Below are positions 6,797 to 16,523 of a stretch of 64,000 nt of DNA, piece by piece. The stretch is from Patulibacter minatonensis DSM 18081 (GTDB lineage Bacteria > Actinomycetota > Thermoleophilia > Solirubrobacterales > Solirubrobacteraceae). Position numbers and translations under genes: made by a program. Numbering within the stretch: the first letter of the stretch is position 1; each line of letters opens with the position of its first letter. The notes beneath the pieces are model-generated. The model worked only from the letters and a program-made list of their open reading frames with translations, searched no databases and was not told the origin of the DNA. The stretch lies in contig NZ_KI912613.1 of NCBI RefSeq assembly GCF_000519325.1, forward strand, positions 1,099,369 through 1,163,368. The letters are read 5' to 3'.

Positions 6797-7901
6797 CTAG
6801 ATCCCGTTCGGGTCGCAGCCCTGGCCGGTGCTCGCCGCCATGCCGGAGGACGACCACTTCTGGCAGTAGACGCCCTTGTGGTACGACGCGTCGCGGTCGT
6901 ACTGCGTCAGACCGATAGACGGGTTCGCGCTGTGCGCCCCGATCGCGGACTCCGAGGAGCGCATCGCGGCCTGGAACGAGGCGATCGCCGAGCGCTGCGC
7001 CCCGTCGGCGGGCTCGAGCGCCGCGAGCTTGCGGGCGACGGCGCGGCGGTTGGTGAGCGCCGACTGGTACTGCTGGCCGACGGTCATCTGTCGCCCGCGG
7101 GCCGACTGCTGCATGAGCGCCACGAGCTGCCGGGCGACCGCCTTCTTCCTCGCCGCCTTCTGCTGGGCGGCGGTCTGACCCGCAGGGGGCGCGCCGCCCG
7201 CCGCGCCGCCGCCGGCGGACCCGCCGCCGGTCGAGGGCGTCCCGCCGTTCGCGGTCGTCCCGCCGTTCGACGGCGGCGTCGGTGCCGTGCCGGTCCCGTC
7301 CTTCGTGCCGTCGCCCCGGCCGTCGGTCTTCGTGACCTGCGCGGCCCGGTCGCCCTTGTCGTCCTTCTTGTCGTCCCCCGGCGACGCGATCAGGTAGCCG
7401 ATCACGACGGCCAGGATCAGGACGAGCGGGATCACCGCACCGAGCGCGATCCACCGGCCGCGGCCGCCGTCGCCCGAGGAGCCACCGCCCGCCGGTGCCT
7501 GCGGCGGCGCGGAGCCCCAGCCCTGCGCCGGCCCCTGCTGCTGCGGCGGGTGCGGGGTGCGCGGCCCACCGGACGGGGGTGCCCAGGCCGGCGCGTTCGG
7601 CGTGCGCGGCCGCAGGGGCGCCTGGCCGCTCTGCGGGAGCGCCTGGGTCTCGGCGGTGTCGTCCGGCCCCTGCCGCGGGCACGGGTGCGGGCGGCGTCGG
7701 GGTGCGGGGCGTCGGGGTGGGCGCGGCGCCCGCCGGTCCCGCGTAGCTCGCGCAGCCGGTGACCGCGCAGCCCTCGTTCTCGGCCCAGCACTCCGCGTGG
7801 TGCGGGGAGCCGCACGCGTCGCAGAACGTCAGCTCGACGCCCGACTTGATGGTGAAGTGGCAGTAGGGGCAGGCGGCGCCGACCGCGGATCGCGAGCTCA
7901 T
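6797..7901 (-). CDS. RING-like zinc finger membrane protein (frameshifted)
   Basis: Last gene of the Ubl operon. The ATG at 7901 overlaps the JAB stop codon as ATGA. The N-terminus has eight possible zinc ligands in a cross-brace arrangement: C11, C14, C27, C30, H34 or H35, C38, C45, C50, with the core CPYC, FCDACGSPHHAECW and GCAVTGC, matching prokaryotic RING finger family 1. A Pro-rich linker, one TM helix (about residues 151-172, WIALGAVIPLVLILAVVIGY), a Gly/Thr linker and a helical C-terminus with Cys residues follow. The coding frame changes at the CCCC run 7667-7670: removing one base gives a continuous 367-residue protein, as the 1105-base length also shows. This is either a real frameshift or a sequence error. 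A role as E3 partner is inferred from family and context. Confidence 0.75.
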
Positions 7902-8746
7902 CGGGACGGCACTCCTGGAACGGGGCGGGACGGGGACGCGCCGGGATCGGCCTTGGCGGCAGCGACCCCGCCGAAGCCGACGACCAGTCCGGCGAGGACG
8001 GCGAGCCCGACCCGCAGGCGCAGCCCGGGATCGGGTGCGGGACCGCCGGCGACGGCCGGGGCCGCGACGGACGCAGATGGGGCCGGTGCGGCCGGTGTGC
8101 CGGGCCGGGCGTAGGCGCCCGACGCCGGCTCGACCGGCAGCGCGCTCACCGGGGGCCGCTCCGGAACATCGGCGACCGCGCGGGTCACGCCCGGACCGGC
8201 CCCGCCGCCGGGCGGCGTGGTCCCGGGGCCGGCGCCGGGCGGCGGCCCGGCGCGCCGCTCGCCCTCCGGCGGGGTCCGCGCCGGGCCGCCGAGACCCTCG
8301 CGCTTCGTGTCGCGCTCGGCGAGCAGCCGGACCTCGCCCTCGCGCCAGCCGAACAGGCCCTCGGTGCCGGCCTGCGGGTCGACGACGTGGGCGATCTGGC
8401 CCTCGTTCGAGAAGAAGTTCCTCTGGATGAACGTGTCGTGGTCGGACAGGAAGATCCCGAAGCCCGGGTGCGAGTGGTACCAGCCGACGATCGCCTGGCC
8501 GGGGAAGTCACGCTCGAGCGTGGCGTGGACGGTCGACCACGCGTCGTGGGTGAACGTGACGCTCGCGCGCTCCGACGTCGCCTCGAGCGCGGCGATCGCG
8601 CCGGACACGACGGTCTCGCGGTCCGCCGCGACGATGCGGCCGACGAGCACGCCGCCGACCTCGTGGTCGGGGGAGGAGAAGACGTGCTCGATCACCGCGT
8701 CGTGGGCGACCCTCGTGATGCGGGGCCGGAAGCCGGGGGTGCTCAC
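7898..8746 (-). CDS. JAB/JAMM metalloprotease with C-terminal membrane anchor
   Basis: 282-residue putative Ubl-deconjugating isopeptidase. The JAMM set is complete: E29 in EVGGVLVG, H91 and H93 in GWYHSHPGFG, S101 and D104 in LSDHD, which would bind catalytic zinc. After the catalytic domain (1-145) comes a long Pro/Gly/Ala linker and one TM helix (about 245-264) near the C-terminus, so the enzyme is probably membrane-tethered with the catalytic domain in the cytoplasm. The GTG start overlaps the E1 stop (GTGA, 8743-8746) and the stop overlaps the RING-like gene's ATG, so translation of the three genes is coupled. Removal of the Ubl from targets is inferred from the operon. Confidence 0.9.
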   Translation of the reverse strand: MSTPGFRPRITRVAHDAVIEHVFSSPDHEVGGVLVGRIVAADRETVVSGAIAALEATSERASVTFTHDAWSTVHATLERDFPGQAIVGWYHSHPGFGIFLSDHDTFIQRNFFSNEGQIAHVVDPQAGTEGLFGWREGEVRLLAERDTKREGLGGPARTPPEGERRAGPPPGAGPGTTPPGGGAGPGVTRAVADVPERPPVSALPVEPASGAYARPGTPAAPAPSASVAAPAVAGGPAPDPGLRLRVGLAVLAGLVVGFGGVAAAKADPGASPSRPVPGVPSR

Positions 8747-10065
8747 GAGACGTCCTCCGCCGGGTTCGCGGCTGCCTGCGGTCCGGGGGCGTCCGGAACG
8801 AGCGTCGCGCCGGTGGGGCCGGGATCCGCCCCGTCGGCCGCGCTCGCCGCCCCGCCGTCGGCCGTCGCCGCCGTCAGCCGCTCCGTCAGCGACAGCGCGC
8901 CGCCGAGCACCAGGTGCCGACGCTCCAGGCCGTGCCGGGCGGTGACGACGTCCGCCGGGGCGACGCCGATCTCCGCGGGTCGCAGGCCGAGGAACTCGTC
9001 GTGCTCCGGGCGGATCGTGTGGACGAGGCGCAGGCCGAGCTCCTCGCCGCAGACCGCGCAGACCGCGTCGGGGGCCTTCAGCTCGTGCAGCGGCCGGTTG
9101 ATCGGCCGGTCGGTCTCGCACGACTCGCAGCGGCCGGAGACCGCGAGCTCCGTCTCCGTCTGGAGGGTCACGTCGTCGGTCCCCAGCAGCTCGCGTCCGA
9201 GGGTCAGGAGCTGAAGGAACGTGGCGTCCAGCGGCACGTCGCGGCTGTGCTCCGCCTCGTAGTGGTCGTGCGCCATGCACTCCTCCTGCCGCGCGTAGGT
9301 CACCACGTAGGAGTCGTGCGTGACCCCGTTGTACGCGTACCCGCGCCCGATCAGGCCCATCGGCCCGCGCTCGTGCAACAGCTTGATCGCCTCCTGGACC
9401 TGGATGCCGGCGACGATCGCCGCCGTCGTCGCGGTGGTGGGGACCTTCCCGGCCTCCATCTCGTCGCGGGAGAGCAGCGAGCACGAGCGGCGCGCGGCCA
9501 CGATCTGGTGGTCGCGCTCGCCCATCGTGCACTCGTAGCAGGGGCCCTCGTCCGGGCCCTGGTTCGGGACGAACGCGCGGGCGACGCCCTGGAGCCCCTC
9601 GATCGCGCCGTCGACCCACGGCGTGCCGACCTTCCAGCACGCCTGGTTGACGAACAGCCGGGCCTCGCGGTTGTCGAGCCCGCCGAGGACGACGTCGACG
9701 TCGCGGAAGACGCTCAGCCCGATCGTCGAGCGCACGTCGCCGTGGAGCGCGAAGAGCTCGACCTCCTCGTTGAGGTCGCGGGCGGCCTCGACGACGACCT
9801 CGGCCTTCGAGCGGCCCTCGTCGCGCGGGCGGAACAGCACGCAGCGCGACAGGTTGGAGTCCTCGATCACGTCGAGGTCGGCGACGAGGACGGTCCCGAC
9901 GCCCATCAGCACGAGGTTCTTGACGAGCTCGTTGCCGAGCGCGCCGGCGCCCACGACGAGCACGCGTGCGTCGCGCAGCAGGGACTGGTCCCACCAGGTG
10001 ATGAGCGACTGGCGGTGGTACCGGCCGTCGGTCGCCGCGACGTCGAGCGTCAGCTTGTCGGACAT
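8743..10065 (-). CDS. E1-like Ubl-activating enzyme (ThiF/MoeB fold)
   Basis: 440-residue protein. Rossmann ATP-binding loop GAGALG (39-44), DLDVIEDSNLSR (63-74), and GGLDNREARLFVNQ (128-141) are the ThiF/E1 adenylation signatures. CYEC (176-179) matches the MoeB-type zinc pair. C195 in RRSCSLL precedes the crossover-loop motif KVPTTATTAAIVAG (207-220) and is a candidate for the thioester cysteine. A C-terminal extension carries two further CxxC pairs (313/316 and 336/339), probably zinc-binding, then a disordered tail. The reaction expected is ATP-dependent adenylation of the Ubl C-terminal glycine, followed by transfer to the E2. Starts 15 bases after the Ubl gene. Confidence 0.93.
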   Translation of the reverse strand: MSDKLTLDVAATDGRYHRQSLITWWDQSLLRDARVLVVGAGALGNELVKNLVLMGVGTVLVADLDVIEDSNLSRCVLFRPRDEGRSKAEVVVEAARDLNEEVELFALHGDVRSTIGLSVFRDVDVVLGGLDNREARLFVNQACWKVGTPWVDGAIEGLQGVARAFVPNQGPDEGPCYECTMGERDHQIVAARRSCSLLSRDEMEAGKVPTTATTAAIVAGIQVQEAIKLLHERGPMGLIGRGYAYNGVTHDSYVVTYARQEECMAHDHYEAEHSRDVPLDATFLQLLTLGRELLGTDDVTLQTETELAVSGRCESCETDRPINRPLHELKAPDAVCAVCGEELGLRLVHTIRPEHDEFLGLRPAEIGVAPADVVTARHGLERRHLVLGGALSLTERLTAATADGGAASAADGADPGPTGATLVPDAPGPQAAANPAEDVS

Positions 10066-10080
10066 CTCCGCACCCGCCGG

Positions 10081-10341
10081 TCAGCCCGCGGTGATCTCGG
10101 CGACGAGCCGGAGCACGTCCCCGTCGCGGACCCCGGCGTCGGAGAGCGTCTCCTGGTCCCCGATCTGCCGGCCCGTCCGCTTGTGGTGGAACTTGTAGGA
10201 GAGCGGGACCCCGTCGGGGCCGATCGCGGGCATCTCCATGAGCTCGACCAGGCGGGCGATGATCCGGCCGGCGGCGACGGAGTCCGGGACGGTCGCGTCC
10301 TCGCTCTTGTTGCCGGTCGCGTCGATCACGATGATGTCCAT
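10081..10341 (-). CDS. YukD-like ubiquitin-like protein
   Basis: 86-residue beta-grasp protein. Strand-turn pattern MDIIVIDATG, then a helix AAGRIIARLVELMEM, then SYKFHHKRTGRQIGDQETLSDAGVRDGDVLRLV. The phrase 'L.daGV.dGDvLrLv' is typical of YukD and ubiquitin-fold proteins. It ends in Ala-Gly directly at the stop codon, so the C-terminal glycine is exposed without processing, unlike ubiquitin precursors; it is not a double Gly. Set between the E2 and E1 genes, it is the likely modifier of the system. Which proteins it modifies cannot be read from the sequence. Confidence 0.88.
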   Translation of the reverse strand: MDIIVIDATGNKSEDATVPDSVAAGRIIARLVELMEMPAIGPDGVPLSYKFHHKRTGRQIGDQETLSDAGVRDGDVLRLVAEITAG

Positions 10342-10381
10342 CAGGTGCTCCGGGGGTGCGGGGGACGGGACGTCGGGGTGC

Positions 10382-10900
10382 TCACGTGAGGTGCCCCAGC
10401 TGGAGCGACGCCTCGCGGCGCGGCAGGGGGATCCCCAGGTCGACGAGCGTCTGCAGGTCGTCGCCGGGCCGCGCGCCGACCTGGCGGGCCCACACGGTCG
10501 CGTCGTGGTCGAGCGGGTCGTCCAGGTTGAACGACTGCCAGGTGGCCAGGCGCACGACGCGGCGGACGACGTCGGCGAGGCCCTCCCCGGCGCTCCACGC
10601 GCCCAGGCAGACCGCGCCGTGGCGGCGCGGCGGCAGGATGTTCGGGTGCAGGATCGGGGTCGTCCAGCGGACGACGGGCGGCAGCCGCGGGTAGTCGCGG
10701 TGCAGGTCGACGACGGCGCGGTGGCCGTGGCGCAGCTTCGGCAGGTCGTCGGCGCCTCGCGCCAGTCCGGGGACCATCAGCGTCAGCTCGTAGCCCTCGG
10801 CCGGGTGGCCCGTGGCCTCGAACGAGATCCGCGGGTCCTGCTCGACGAGCTCCTCGAGGTTCGCGCGGTCGGCGAGGAGGCGGCGGTCGCGGGGGTTCAT
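10382..10900 (-). CDS. E2-like ubiquitin-conjugating enzyme
   Basis: 172-residue UBC-fold protein. The E2 active site is plain: HPN at 85-87 within TPILHPNILP, followed by the likely catalytic cysteine C98 in HGAVCLGAW. The spacing from the Asn to the Cys is 11 residues, slightly longer than the 8 typical of eukaryotic E2s. Preceding strands (YELTLMVPGL, RAVVDLHRDYPRLPPVVRW) follow the usual UBC meander. It would accept the Ubl from the E1 as a thioester and hand it to targets, perhaps with the RING-like protein. ATG 10900 overlaps the stop of a small upstream ORF (ATGA), indicating translational coupling. Confidence 0.92.
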   Translation of the reverse strand: MNPRDRRLLADRANLEELVEQDPRISFEATGHPAEGYELTLMVPGLARGADDLPKLRHGHRAVVDLHRDYPRLPPVVRWTTPILHPNILPPRRHGAVCLGAWSAGEGLADVVRRVVRLATWQSFNLDDPLDHDATVWARQVGARPGDDLQTLVDLGIPLPRREASLQLGHLT

Positions 10901-11055
10901 CGGCCTGACCGGGCGGACGGGTCGGACGCGAGGGCTGCGACCGGCCGACCGGCACGTCGTGGCGCGCCGGTGGAGGCGGCCCGGCGGGCCCGGTACCTCG
11001 CGGCGGTGACGCGGCGCGGCGCGGCGGGGACTGGGCGGGACGACATGGAGGGCAT
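10897..11055 (-). CDS. Small Arg-rich ORF at head of Ubl operon
   Basis: 52 codons, MPSMSSRPVPAAPRRVTAAR onwards, with 13 Arg and no acidic run; no family recognised. Support for it being translated: the stop overlaps the E2 start (ATGA); the ATG is preceded by GGTGAG; and the distance from the ATG to the GGGGTG-N8-CACCCC operator (35 nt) is nearly identical to that of the LuxR gene (36 nt, ATG preceded by GATGAG). It could be a leader peptide, a small protein factor, or simply the 5' end of the transcript. Confidence 0.45.
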   Translation of the reverse strand: MPSMSSRPVPAAPRRVTAARYRARRAASTGAPRRAGRPVAALASDPSARSGR

Positions 11056-11090
11056 CTCACCAGATCCCCGGGCCCTTGGCGACCCCTTCA

Positions 11091-11110
11091 GGGGTGAGCC
11101 GGGCCACCCC
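11091..11110. promoter_or_regulatory. Operator GGGGTG-N8-CACCCC, Ubl operon / FHA-ABC
   Basis: Inverted repeat in the divergent region between the Ubl operon and the FHA-ABC gene. The same arms and the same 8-bp spacer occur at 16994-17013 upstream of the LuxR gene, 35 versus 36 nt from the minus-strand ATG and about 100 nt from the plus-strand start in both places. Probably a binding site for a shared regulator. The other bases of this divergent region (11056-11217) hold no further signal I can name. Confidence 0.65.
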
Positions 11111-11217
11111 TCCGGCGCCCGGTCGGGCTCCCGGGGTCTGCGGCGTCCACACCTCGCCGCCCCGACGACTCCGCCGATCGGACGAATCCGGTGACGGCCC
11201 GCCCCCGCGCTGCTTGA

Positions 11218-13563
11218 ATGCCGCTCATGCGTGGCGACGCCGGACCAGATGACGTCGACGTCGTGCTCCGCTCGCGGGGCTCGGGCGTCGACGTCGTCCT
11301 GCGCCAGCCGGCGCTCCTGATCGACGGCGACCGCGTCCCGATCGGCCGCGACCGGCTCGCGGTGGACGTCGACCCGCGGTCCGGGGTGCTGACCGCGTCC
11401 ACCGGGCCCGCCGGGCCGCAGACGGTCGCCACCGTCGTCCGCGGATCCGGGCGGGTCGAGATCGAGCCGGTCGCCGGGGCCGCCGTCCGCGTCGACGGCG
11501 CCGACGTCTCCCGCCGGACGCTGGTCGGCGGCGAGCGGATCGAGGTCGCCGGGCGGGTCGTGCGGTACGTGACCGACGCGGCCGAGGACACGATGGTCGT
11601 CCCCGGCAGCACCGCGACCCCGGTCGCGACCGGCAGCCTCCGCCTGGACCGCGAGGTGCTGCGGATCGGGCGGGACCCGTCGTGCGACGTGCTGCTGGAC
11701 CACCCCGCGGTCGCGCCCGTCCACGCCGAGATCACGGCCGGCTCCCACGGGCCGCTCCTGCGCGACCGCAGCGGCCCCGGCGCCGGCGTCGCGGTCAACG
11801 GCGGACGGGTCCGCCACGCGTACCTGAACGTCGGCGACGAGCTCGCCATCGGCCCGTACCGCCTGGTCTTCGACGGCGAGGTCCTGCACCAGCACGGCGA
11901 CGCGACGAGCCTGCGCCTCGACGCCGAGGGCGTCAGCGTCACGGTCGGCGAGCGCACGATCCTCCAGCCGGTCTGGCTGACGGTCCGGCCCGGCGAGGTC
12001 GTCGCGATCATCGGCGAGTCCGGCGCCGGCAAGAGCACGCTGATGACCGCGCTCTGCGGCGTGCGTCCGGCGAGCGGCGGGCGGATCACCGTCAACGGCG
12101 AGCCGCTCGCGCAGCGCACGAGCGACCTCGGCTTCGTGCCGCAGGACGACATCGTCCACCGCGACCTGACCGTCCGCGAGGCCCTGGGCTACGCCGCCGA
12201 GCTGCGCCTGCCGCAGAGCGCACCGAAGGCCCAGCGGCAGCAGGCCGTCGAGCAGGTGATCCAGGAGGTCGGGCTCGAGGAGCACGCCGAGACCCGGATC
12301 GGGTCCCTGTCGGGCGGCCAGCGCAAGCGCGTCTCGGTCGCGACCGAGCTCGTCAGCCGGCCGGGCCTGCTGTTCCTCGACGAGCCGACGACCGGCCTGG
12401 ACTCCGGCCTCGAGCGGCGCATGATGCTGCTCCTGCGCGAGCTCGCCGACGCCGGCCGCGGCGTGATGCTCGTGACGCACGCGACGCGGAGCCTCCACCT
12501 CTGCGACCGCATCGCCGTCATGGGCCGCGGCGGCCTGACGTGCTTCATCGGCCCGCCGGCCGACGCGCTGCGGTTCTTCGGGGTGCAGGACGCCGACGAG
12601 ATCTACGAGGCGCTCGACCGCACCCCCGCCGCCGAGTGGCACTCCGCGTTCGTCGCGTCCGAGCACGCGCAGAGCACCTGGGACGGCCCGAGCCAGCCCG
12701 GCGGCCTCGGCGCCCGGCGCCGGCCGGCCGCGCTGCCGCAGTTCTTCCTCTTCCTGCGCCGCTACGCGCTCCTGACCGTCCGCGACCGCCGCACCCTGAC
12801 GACGATCGCGCTGCAGGCGCCGCTCCTCGCGTTCCTGACGGCGCTGCTCTTCAAGACCGGCGTCTTCGTCCACGAGGGCTCGCCGAAGCTCATGCGCGCG
12901 GGGCAGAGCGCGCAGGTCCTCTTCCTCGCGGTGACCGTGGTCGCCTGGCTCGGGGCGATCGGGAGCTCGCGCGAGATCGTCAAGGAACGGGCGGTGCTCC
13001 GGCGGGAGCTCGCGGTCGGCGGGCGGGTCGGCGCGTACCTCGCGTCGAAGCTCGTCCTGCTCGGGGCGCTGATGGTCGCCCAGACCCTGGCCGTCGCGGC
13101 GATCCTCTTCGTCCTGCGGCCGATGCACGAGCCGATCGGCACCCAGGCCGTCGTGATCGGCGTGCTGATCCTCAACGGGTTCGCCGCGCTCGCGACCGGC
13201 CTGGTGGTCAGCGCGGCGTCGCGCAACGAGGACCAGGCGGGCAGCCTGATCCCGATCATCCTCGTGCCGCAGCTCCTGTTCGCCGGGGCGATCGTGTCGA
13301 TCGCGCAGCTCGCCGCGCCCCTGAAGGTGATCTCCGGCCTCGCGTTCGCCCGCTGGGCGTTCGCGGGCACGGGCTCCGGGGTCGACATGAACGAGCGCCT
13401 GGCGCGCGACCCGATCACGCGGACGACGAACACCTACGGCACGGACTTCTTCTCGATCAGCCCGGCGCTGTCGATGGCGATCCTGCTCGCCTTCGTCGCG
13501 GCGCTCGCGGGCGTCACCGCGTGGCTCGTGAACACGCGCGGGCGCAAGGACGACCGGGCCTGA
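11218..13563 (+). CDS. FHA domain-containing ABCG-type ABC transporter
   Basis: 781-residue half-transporter. An N-terminal degenerate FHA-like region (about 20-120) is followed by a clear FHA domain (about 140-220: LRIGRDPSCDVLLDHPAVAPVHAEI cut here into its GRD and H elements). The ABC ATPase has Walker A GESGAGKS (266-273), signature LSGGQRKRVS, and Walker B GLLFLDEPTTGLDS. The C-terminal part (about 510-775) holds six hydrophobic segments of ABC2 type, the ABCG/White arrangement. Phosphothreonine reading by the FHA domain suggests control by a Ser/Thr kinase such as the one encoded next. Divergent from the Ubl operon with a shared operator. ATG 11227 is an equally possible start. Substrate unknown. 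Confidence 0.92.
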   Translation: MPLMRGDAGPDDVDVVLRSRGSGVDVVLRQPALLIDGDRVPIGRDRLAVDVDPRSGVLTASTGPAGPQTVATVVRGSGRVEIEPVAGAAVRVDGADVSRRTLVGGERIEVAGRVVRYVTDAAEDTMVVPGSTATPVATGSLRLDREVLRIGRDPSCDVLLDHPAVAPVHAEITAGSHGPLLRDRSGPGAGVAVNGGRVRHAYLNVGDELAIGPYRLVFDGEVLHQHGDATSLRLDAEGVSVTVGERTILQPVWLTVRPGEVVAIIGESGAGKSTLMTALCGVRPASGGRITVNGEPLAQRTSDLGFVPQDDIVHRDLTVREALGYAAELRLPQSAPKAQRQQAVEQVIQEVGLEEHAETRIGSLSGGQRKRVSVATELVSRPGLLFLDEPTTGLDSGLERRMMLLLRELADAGRGVMLVTHATRSLHLCDRIAVMGRGGLTCFIGPPADALRFFGVQDADEIYEALDRTPAAEWHSAFVASEHAQSTWDGPSQPGGLGARRRPAALPQFFLFLRRYALLTVRDRRTLTTIALQAPLLAFLTALLFKTGVFVHEGSPKLMRAGQSAQVLFLAVTVVAWLGAIGSSREIVKERAVLRRELAVGGRVGAYLASKLVLLGALMVAQTLAVAAILFVLRPMHEPIGTQAVVIGVLILNGFAALATGLVVSAASRNEDQAGSLIPIILVPQLLFAGAIVSIAQLAAPLKVISGLAFARWAFAGTGSGVDMNERLARDPITRTTNTYGTDFFSISPALSMAILLAFVAALAGVTAWLVNTRGRKDDRA

Positions 13564-13659: not shown

Positions 13660-15717
13660 TCAGCCCCCGCGCTTCAGCGACCCGGCGACGCGCACCGCGG
13701 ACGCCTGGGCCTCGTCCGCCGTCGGGGCGACCGCGAAGACCGACCAGCCCGGGCCCTTCGCCCCCGCGTTCTGCCGGACGGTGACGCAGGTCCGGCCCTC
13801 GGTCGTGCACCCGAGCGCGGACGGCCCGCGGGACGCGTCGTAGCGCCAGCCGGTGTTGCCGTTGCCGAGCTCGATCTGGTTGCGGCCCGTCTTCGGGATC
13901 AGGACCTTCTCGCCGCTCGTGTAGTCGACGACGATCGCCCGGCCCCCGGGACCCTTCTGCAGCACCCGGTGGAGCGTCGGATCGTCGACCTTCGACGTCC
14001 GGGGCGTCCCCCAGCCGGCCTCTGCCGCCGGGAGCGTGCCCGTCCAGCGGTTCTTCGGCGCGGTGAACGTCCGGGCGGTCGCGCCGGGCGGGAAGCTCCC
14101 GTCGGCCTCGTCCTTCGTCCCGTCGACCACGAGGTAGGCGACGGCCCCGGCGACCAGGAGGACGACGAGCACGCCGAGCAGCAGCCGGCGCCGGACGCGG
14201 CGCTCCGCGGCCCGGATCTCGTCGCGGCGCCGGGCGAGGATCGCCTCCGACGGCCCGCGGCGCTCGCCGGCCTTCGGACGGACGACCGGTGGCGGGACCA
14301 CCTGCGCCGGACGCAACGGCTCCCGGGGCGCGGGGACGGGGGCGCGGGCGCGCTCGGCGAGCGGCTGGTCCTCCGCACCGTCCTCGTCGCGTCCCGCGGC
14401 GGCCGCTGCGGCACGGCGCAGCGCCGCCGGCGAGCCGGGCTTCGCGGGGACCGGCTTCCGCGGCCGGTCGTCGGGGCCCGACCCGGGCGGACCGTCGTCG
14501 TCCGCGGACGCGCCCGTGCCGGGGCCGTCCACCGCGTCGGCGGCCGCACCGCCCACGGCGGCCGCCCCACCGGCGGCGGTCGTGCGGTCCGCCGGCCGCA
14601 ACGCTCCCCCGACCGGGGGCGGACCATGGTCGGGCGCGCCGTCCGCGCCTCCGACGGGCGAGGGGTCGTCCCCGTCCGGCCGGTCCGTGCCGGCGTCGAC
14701 GTGCCCGTCCGCAGCGTCGGCCGGCGGCGCCGAGGCGGGACCGGCCCCGGGTGCCGCACGCGACCGCAGGACGACCTCGACGAGCGACTCCTCGGCGGGC
14801 CCGTCGGCGATCGTCGCGTCGTCGTCGCCGCCGAGCTGGGTCCCGAGCGAGACGCCCGCCACCGGGCGGGTCGACTCCACCCGCCGGAGCGCCGCGGCGG
14901 CCGCGCTCGCGAAGTCCCCCGCCGTCGGGTACCGGTCCTTCGGGTCGACCGCGAGCCCGCGGGCGATCACCGGGTCGAACGGCGAGAGGCCCTCGACCCG
15001 CAGGCTGGGGCGCGGGCGCGGGGCCCGGACGTGCGCGGCCAGGCGGGTCGCGGTCGTGCCCGTGAACGGCGGCGCGCCCGTCAGCGCGGTGAGCAGCGTC
15101 GCGGCCAGGGCGTAGACGTCCGCGCGCGCATCGGTGTCCTGCTGCTCGATCGACTCGGGCGCCAGGTAGTCGATGCTGCCGACGACCATCCCGGAGACCG
15201 TGAGGTCGTTCGAGGCGTCGATCTCCTTCGTCAGGCCGAAGTCGCCGAGCAGCGCGACGGTCCGGCCCCCGCGCTGCGCCAGCAGCACGTTGGCGGGCTT
15301 CACGTCGCGGTGCAGCACCCCGAGCTCGTGCGCGTGGTCCAGGCCGGCGGCGACCTGCTCGATCACGGCGACCGCCTCGGCGGGCGGGAGCGGGCCGCCG
15401 TGGTCGCCGATCCGCGTGCGGAGGTCGGCGCCGTCGACGTACTCCATGGCGATCCACGGGCGGTCGTCGGACTCCCCCGCGTCGTAGACCGTGACGACGT
15501 TCGGGTGGTCCAGCCGGGCGGCGAGCCGGGCCTCGCGCGCGAAGCGCCTGCGGAACGACTCCTCCTGCGCGCGCTCGACGGAGAGGACCTTGAAGGCGAC
15601 CTTCCGGCCGAGCTCGACGTGCTCGGCCCGGAAGACGACGCCCATGCCGCCGCGACCGATCGGTGCGTCGATCCGGTAGCCGTCGATGAGCTCGCCAGGG
15701 CGGGGTTCGTGCGTCAC
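13660..15717 (-). CDS. Transmembrane Ser/Thr protein kinase
   Basis: 685-residue Hanks-type kinase from GTG 15717; a GTG at 15759 gives 14 more residues. Kinase domain about 10-275: glycine loop IGRGGMGVVF, AFKV lysine, catalytic loop HRDVKPAN, GDFGLTKE, and GSIDYLAPE. A long Pro/Ala/Asp-rich linker (about 290-480) is followed by a basic segment, a TM helix (LLLGVLVVLLVAGAVAYLVV) and an extracytoplasmic domain of about 140 residues containing two Cys (GCTTEGRTC), with no PASTA repeats. It probably senses something outside the membrane and phosphorylates FHA partners; FHA proteins flank it on both sides. Convergent with the FHA-ABC gene and divergent from the FHA-HTH gene. Confidence 0.93.
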   Translation of the reverse strand: MTHEPRPGELIDGYRIDAPIGRGGMGVVFRAEHVELGRKVAFKVLSVERAQEESFRRRFAREARLAARLDHPNVVTVYDAGESDDRPWIAMEYVDGADLRTRIGDHGGPLPPAEAVAVIEQVAAGLDHAHELGVLHRDVKPANVLLAQRGGRTVALLGDFGLTKEIDASNDLTVSGMVVGSIDYLAPESIEQQDTDARADVYALAATLLTALTGAPPFTGTTATRLAAHVRAPRPRPSLRVEGLSPFDPVIARGLAVDPKDRYPTAGDFASAAAAALRRVESTRPVAGVSLGTQLGGDDDATIADGPAEESLVEVVLRSRAAPGAGPASAPPADAADGHVDAGTDRPDGDDPSPVGGADGAPDHGPPPVGGALRPADRTTAAGGAAAVGGAAADAVDGPGTGASADDDGPPGSGPDDRPRKPVPAKPGSPAALRRAAAAAAGRDEDGAEDQPLAERARAPVPAPREPLRPAQVVPPPVVRPKAGERRGPSEAILARRRDEIRAAERRVRRRLLLGVLVVLLVAGAVAYLVVDGTKDEADGSFPPGATARTFTAPKNRWTGTLPAAEAGWGTPRTSKVDDPTLHRVLQKGPGGRAIVVDYTSGEKVLIPKTGRNQIELGNGNTGWRYDASRGPSALGCTTEGRTCVTVRQNAGAKGPGWSVFAVAPTADEAQASAVRVAGSLKRGG

Positions 15718-15830
15718 GGAGAAGGCGCTCGCGGTGGGATCGCCCGCGATCGTGCGCACAGTCTGCCGCAGACGGGCGATCCGGGGTGATCGTGAACGGC
15801 GTCGCCCGGCGACTATCCTCGGCCCCGGTC

Positions 15831-16523
15831 GTGTCCGACTCCTCCCCGCATCCCCAGCGCGGCCTCGAGCTCGAGGCCGTCCAGCGCCACGAGCGGCTCG
15901 GCCGGCCGTTCCTCACCTTCCGCCCACCCGGCGGCGACCTGCAGATCGCGCTGCTGCCGGAGGACGCCGCGGCGCAGACGATCGGCCGCCGTGCCGGGCA
16001 GCTCGTCGCGCTGGAGTGGGACGCCCGCGTGTCCCGCGTCCACGCGCGGCTCGAGGCCCTCGCGGACTCGTGGTGGGTCGTCGACGACGGCGTCTCCACC
16101 AACGGCACGTTCGTCGGCGCGGAGCGCGTCGCGGGCCGGCGGCGCCTGGAGCACGGGGACGTCCTGGTGCTCGGCGGGTCGAGCGTGGCGTTCCACGACC
16201 CGACGCCGGCGGGCCTGTCGATGACGATCGAGGCGAGCGGGCTCCTCGCGCCGCCGACCCTGACCCCGGCCCAGCGGCGGGTGCTCGACGCGCTCTGCCG
16301 CCCGTGCCGGCCGGGCGTCGTCGCGGCGCCGGCGACGAACCAGCAGATCGCCGCGGAGCTCGTGGTCGGCGTCGACGCGGTGAAGACCCAGATGCGGAGC
16401 CTGTTCACCGCGCTGGGCGTCGGGGACCTGCCGCAGAACCAGAAGCGCGCCCGGGTGGTCGAGCGCGCGTTCGAGCTGGGCATGGTGCGGCCGGACGGCA
16501 CGCCGGAGCGGGACGGGGCCTGA
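15831..16523 (+). CDS. FHA domain protein with LuxR-like C-terminal helix pair
   Basis: About 230 residues from GTG 15831, which lies 11 nt after a TATCCT box at 15814-15819; a GTG at 15786 gives an extra 15 residues. FHA domain about 35-125: TIGRRAGQLVALEW, RVSRVHARLE, and VDDGVSTNGTFVG are the phosphothreonine-binding loops. The C-terminal part 'LTPAQRRVLDALCRP' and 'TNQQIAAELVVGVDAVKTQM' looks like a LuxR/response-regulator helix-turn-helix. It would link kinase output to transcription, either by binding DNA or by binding phosphorylated partners. Start uncertain, family call firm. Confidence 0.85.
   Translation: MSDSSPHPQRGLELEAVQRHERLGRPFLTFRPPGGDLQIALLPEDAAAQTIGRRAGQLVALEWDARVSRVHARLEALADSWWVVDDGVSTNGTFVGAERVAGRRRLEHGDVLVLGGSSVAFHDPTPAGLSMTIEASGLLAPPTLTPAQRRVLDALCRPCRPGVVAAPATNQQIAAELVVGVDAVKTQMRSLFTALGVGDLPQNQKRARVVERAFELGMVRPDGTPERDGA

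Follow-up and report, generated by a model that had tools for sequence, protein, structure and literature searches.

The window, that is, the whole stretch of 64,000 nucleotides from Patulibacter minatonensis DSM 18081 that was analysed, was found to carry an operon whose identity as an E1-E2-RING-JAB-YukD-like Ubl gene set was supported. The five adjacent genes are located on the minus strand in the order E2, Ubl, E1, JAB and RING, from position 10900 down to approximately 6797 (Table 1). The operon probably encodes a pathway for reversible, non-proteasomal Ubl conjugation at the cytoplasmic membrane that is coupled to phospho-signals.

An earlier note on this DNA had described five adjoining ubiquitin-pathway genes, and this description was borne out by Pfam, where all five products scored above the curated cut-off of their family, and by homologous operons in other phyla. 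The note had also placed the operon in a type that Burroughs, Iyer and Aravind had predicted, and this assignment was likewise supported by the families, folds, active sites and homologous operons. The proposed span of 6797-11055 enclosed all five genes, but it was too long at the E2 end, as 10901-11055 is upstream intergenic DNA. Of the three 4-bp overlaps that had been claimed, only two were found, at E1/JAB (GTGA) and JAB/RING (ATGA); the E2-Ubl and Ubl-E1 junctions are gaps of 40 bp and 15 bp, respectively.

Table 1. Features of the Ubl operon and its divergent neighbours, with positions in the window.
Feature	Position	Strand	Support
E2 (UBC fold), 172 aa, HPN 85-87, C98	10382..10900	-	UQ_con 5.7e-8
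YukD-like Ubl, 86 aa, end ...EITAG	10081..10341	-	YukD 1.5e-12
E1, single ThiF adenylation domain, crossover-loop C195, C-terminal CxxC domain	8743..10065	-	ThiF 5.1e-52
JAMM/JAB isopeptidase (predicted), hydrophobic residues 246-264	7898..8746	-	JAB 2.5e-9
Prok-RING_1 domain (C4HC3), putative E3, ATG 7901 frame	7661..7901	-	PF14446 2e-10
Pro-rich linker, TM segment and tail of the RING gene, other frame	6797..7675	-	codon log-likelihood, GC3
Divergent intergenic region	10901..11217	.	alignment with congener G005
FHA-ABC-2 transporter fusion, divergent, candidate partner	11218..13563	+	FHA 3.4e-11, ABC_tran 2.8e-31, ABC2_membrane 7.9e-20 (Pfam)
Ser/Thr protein kinase	13660..15759	-	Pkinase 3.1e-47

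The residues on which the first description was based were all identified. In particular, HPN85-87 and C98 of the E2 and E29, H91, H93, S101 and D104 of the JAB were present and conserved; the E1 contained C195 and the CxxC pairs 176/179, 313/316 and 336/339; and the RING domain contained its eight ligands (C11, C14, C27, C30, H34 or H35, C38, C45 and C50). Because the active and ligand residues are kept in relatives from several phyla, the observation is not a matter of chance. The PDB matches of the E2 (phmmer) were eukaryotic E2s throughout. The AF2 model of the E2 (pLDDT 92.7) confirmed the expected UBC fold, and Foldseek gave UBE2N/UBE2D as the best match with a probability of 1.00. Among 11 E2 relatives, HPN was invariant and C98 was found in at least 90%.

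The E1 is 440 aa long, with one ThiF domain according to Pfam and a short crossover loop in the model. The residues R74, K87, D131, C195, the CYEC pair, C263, H266, C313, C336 and C339 were invariant in its relatives, and the first three correspond to Arg73, Lys86 and Asp130 of the MoeB ATP site (PMC12355090). In the AF2 model (pLDDT 81.8), the crossover loop that surrounds C195 is mobile, whereas the C-terminal domain (approximately residues 272-403) is ordered. UBA3 was the top Foldseek match of this model, aligning over approximately 440-466 columns with an rmsd of 11-13 Å; because this rmsd is high, the C-terminal domain is only tentatively described as UFD-like. The ThiF fold, which is common to the E1, would also fit a ThiS/MoaD-like sulfur carrier for which the E1 makes a thiocarboxylate. 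Several results argued against this reading, which we consider very improbable: a profile search placed UBA7, UBA1, UBA3 and UBA2 as the solved sequences nearest to the E1, with ThiF/MoeB ranking lower; the E1s of all the Ubl operons in the tree were separated from ThiF/MoeB with a support of 1.000; no rhodanese domain was found in the E1 by Pfam; and sulfur transfer has no role for an E2 and a RING. Within the tree, the window E1 and those of three same-class genomes formed one clade (0.997).

The end of the Ubl was strongly conserved. A85 and G86 were invariant among relatives, and the core ended in EITAG in all 21 sequences compared (20 close homologues and the window). Nine of the 21 stopped exactly at the Gly, and the other 12 extended beyond it by 2-51 residues that were not conserved, which would fit trimming of a precursor by the JAB. 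From sequence, this pattern looks like a precursor-processing signature, which suggests a Ubl built for conjugation; it matches the processing by Rpn11 that has been shown for an archaeal ubiquitin precursor (PMC5654768). Additionally, the Ubl family profile matched ubiquitin chains in the PDB. Two points count against the conjugation reading: the Ubl is closed by a single Gly and not by GG, and classical YukD was reported as not conjugated (PMC1779556). We also considered whether the Ubl is a YukD/EccD accessory of type VII secretion and not a modifier, since YukD is its best Pfam family. This link was rejected as extremely improbable: WXG100 (PF06013) had no match in the strain's own genome, where the positive control was present, and the single PF08817 match of the genome left no second YukD/EccD. 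The invariant Gly end, the tails that are predicted to be processed and the E1, E2 and JAB partners likewise speak against a secretion accessory and for a modifier.

The best PDB match of the JAB was the archaeal Rpn11-like deubiquitinase 6fjv (4.7e-10), followed by RPN11 and CSN5. The hydrophobic segment near the C-terminus, which had been read as a membrane anchor, is present in the window JAB but missing in two others, from the congener G005 and from G376; such an anchor is therefore not universal among these JABs. In locus L032 (11233-15270), one operon contained three JAB genes, one of which encodes a JAB-TM-LysM fusion (LysM 5.6e-8).

The RING protein had also been described as membrane-anchored; however, its RING domain and its TM segment and tail were found in different frames. 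GC3 phase and codon likelihood switched near 7670-7740, with the signal favouring the RING frame between 7901 and roughly 7740-7670 and a different frame from there to 6797, and the two-frame path was better than the RING frame alone by 276 log units. The TM segment showed a hydropathy of 2.83. The first start codon of the second frame, GTG 7435, is located within the TM segment and the coding signal starts approximately 240 bases earlier, which makes a separate gene unlikely. A frameshift scan of the whole window was noisy. The congener G005 cannot settle the frame because the RING gene is cut off by the end of its contig, and a search of the rest of the G005 genome did not recover the tail. 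The frame change may reflect a sequencing indel, a real frameshift that breaks the RING gene, or programmed frameshifting; the product of the gene would be membrane-anchored only if the shift is bridged or is an error. The frame change in the assembly makes the E3 function in this strain uncertain. One explanation is that the locus is decaying in the strain, with a real frameshift in the RING gene and a pathway that lacks its E3, as the strong codon-phase switch occurs within a single gene whose two parts are separated by neither a start codon nor a stop. We regard decay as unlikely, as a strong coding signal persists in the E2, Ubl, E1 and JAB genes and in the reading frame further downstream, and the breakpoint falls in a Pro-rich, homopolymer-containing region with several G4/C4 runs, a common site of sequencing indels. 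Moreover, complete relatives have the RING and TM segment in one frame. In the draft assembly of a proteobacterial relative, the E1 was split between frames (L041, 10004-11167).

Comparison with relatives revealed a longer form of the operon. The commonest long form starts with Ubl, E1, JAB(TM) and a polytopic membrane protein with a C-terminal FHA domain, and continues with a zinc-ribbon 2TM protein, a RING+TM protein, a RING-TM-trypsin protein and the E2. The polytopic FHA membrane protein was found in 17 loci, including that of the same-class genome G381 (FHA by Pfam), and RING-TM-Trypsin_2 proteins were found in at least nine. Judging from topology and from the sites at which LysM acts, the trypsin and LysM domains are probably located on the outside of the membrane. 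The membrane theme of the earlier note, qualified by the two anchors in the window, was strengthened by these TM-RING, RING-TM-trypsin, JAB-TM-LysM and FHA-membrane proteins. Downstream of a Riflebacteria operon, a third Prok-RING_1 membrane protein was observed (L040, 9107-10021), and the G376 operon adjoins genes for three small membrane proteins that contain collagen-like G-x-y repeats (L054, 8468-9734).

In the window and in G005, a divergent FHA-ABC-2 transporter takes the place of the operonic polytopic FHA protein. The G005 counterpart is syntenic and shares 62% identity with it, no other of the seven congeners has the operon, and the other genomes of the genus contained only paralogues of 39-42% identity that matched the ABC part. 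However, FHA-ABC relatives (45-46%) were present in G010 and G041, both of which lack the operon E1, and the link is therefore not obligatory; in this sample of eight genomes, it is suggestive. The neighbouring Ser/Thr kinase could provide the upstream signal for the FHA partner, and we infer its connection to the operon. Another FHA-domain protein (15786-16523) adjoins the kinase. A 14-bp sequence, CATC(T/A)CACCAGATC, lies at 11053-11066 in the divergent intergenic region of the window and recurs in that of G005 (L053); it may be an operator or promoter element, and a sigma-70 promoter scan found no promoter.

The operon was sparsely distributed. Two of the eight genomes of the genus contained it: G005 had an E1 homologue (62%), and the six others that were examined had no E1 homologue, only MoeB/ThiF-like matches. 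Within the class, convincing E2 matches were limited to G000, G005, G376 and G381, and within the phylum sample the Ubl was found at 1e-6 in one of 396 genomes, that of the window itself. Screening the GTDB species genomes extended the set of relatives to Planctomycetota-type bacteria, Candidatus Zipacnadia, Candidatus Riflebacteria, a proteobacterium and a cyanobacterium. In the phylum of G770, 27 of 294 genomes had a match at 1e-6, and nine had one stronger than 1e-30. A second, more distant Ubl/E1/E2 operon lineage was observed in L119-L125; its Ubls terminate in sequences such as ...EVVAG and ...TFVAG, and it has no FHA membrane protein. G770 carries both lineages.

Such patchy spread, from two of eight in the genus and a few per class to one in the phylum sample, would suit anti-phage defence by Bil- or CBASS-like tagging of phage or immune proteins, and the known bacterial Ubl conjugation systems are antiviral (PMC10097602, PMC11354881). 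The E1-E2 and JAB models of PADLOC also matched, with low scores. On the other hand, BilA/BilB-type proteins had no match, PADLOC returned only generic kinase and ABC matches in the approximately 6 kb that precede the operon and the 11 kb that follow it, and the partner proteins are of FHA, HtrA-like and LysM envelope types. A defence role is accordingly judged quite improbable, and a defence island is unsupported, as no specific defence gene was identified among the neighbours by PADLOC.

Operons of the present kind are not new as a prediction. Burroughs, Iyer and Aravind reportedly predicted Prok-RING_1/YukD-like Ubl operons in bacteria in 2011. Their prediction is cited in a later report (PMC11354881). 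The window is a further member with a compact layout. It shares with the predicted operons the five components, PF14446, a YukD-like Ubl, TM segments (that of the RING gene in a different frame from the RING domain) and a sporadic spread over several phyla; it differs in its compact E2-Ubl-E1-JAB-RING order, its one RING, the frame change in the RING gene and the FHA-ABC transporter that adjoins it instead of an operonic polytopic FHA protein. Literature searches, which mainly covered papers available without subscription, found no experiment on the YukD/Prok-RING branch.

We compared the operon with three other systems. The Caldiarchaeum subterraneum operon similarly encodes Ub-like, E1-like, E2-like and RING proteins with an Rpn11-type JAMM, the full cascade was demonstrated biochemically, and the JAMM trims the precursor (PMC5654768, PMC6043591). 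Its Rpn11 was the best match of the window JAB. In contrast, the archaeal Ub ends in GG, the RING is a small protein and not a TM-RING, and the accessible parts of the two reports mention no FHA, trypsin or LysM partners. BilABCD is likewise a bacterial operon that combines a Ubl with an E1, an E2 and a JAB, but its modifier consists of tandem Ubls, its E1 has a CYS domain and both an inactive and an active adenylation domain, and it lacks a RING (PMC11354881), whereas the window encodes a single 86-aa Ubl, a single ThiF domain and a RING. Membership in BilABCD was rejected on the E1 architecture and the two-Ubl BilA. YukD/EccD of type VII secretion belongs to the same beta-grasp family (PF08817); the window Ubl differs in being Gly-terminated and linked to E1, E2 and JAB in a genome without WXG100.

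In the pathway that we infer from the observed domains, residues, folds and conserved operons, the C-terminal Gly of the Ubl would be adenylated by the E1 and form a thioester at C195, from which the Ubl would be handed to C98 of the E2. The charged E2 would then be recruited by the transmembrane RING protein for transfer of the Ubl to membrane or membrane-proximal proteins, and the JAB would both mature tailed Ubl precursors and strip the tag. Phospho-coupling would operate through the FHA membrane partner, which would be the FHA-ABC transporter here and the polytopic FHA protein elsewhere. The tag would serve as a regulatory or quality-control signal and not as a proteasomal one. Proteasome delivery of conjugates was rejected for this genome, in which PF00227 had no match, with 10 of 14 controls positive. 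A more specific scheme is possible but doubtful: single-pass transmembrane RINGs may act as receptors that sense the state of the envelope through an extracytoplasmic domain and bring about FHA/kinase-gated Ubl tagging of membrane proteins in the cytoplasm, joined in other phyla by an HtrA-like protease (RING-TM-trypsin) and a peptidoglycan-binding deconjugase (JAB-TM-LysM), as a proteasome-free form of envelope quality control.

Bacterial Ubl conjugation by an E1, an E2 and a deconjugase has been shown for antiviral systems. The parts of the YukD/Prok-RING branch are closer to the eukaryotic and archaeal ubiquitin cascade than sulfur-carrier proteins are, and the comparative data offer this branch a testable cellular role at the envelope, in connection with phospho-signalling and with no proteasome.
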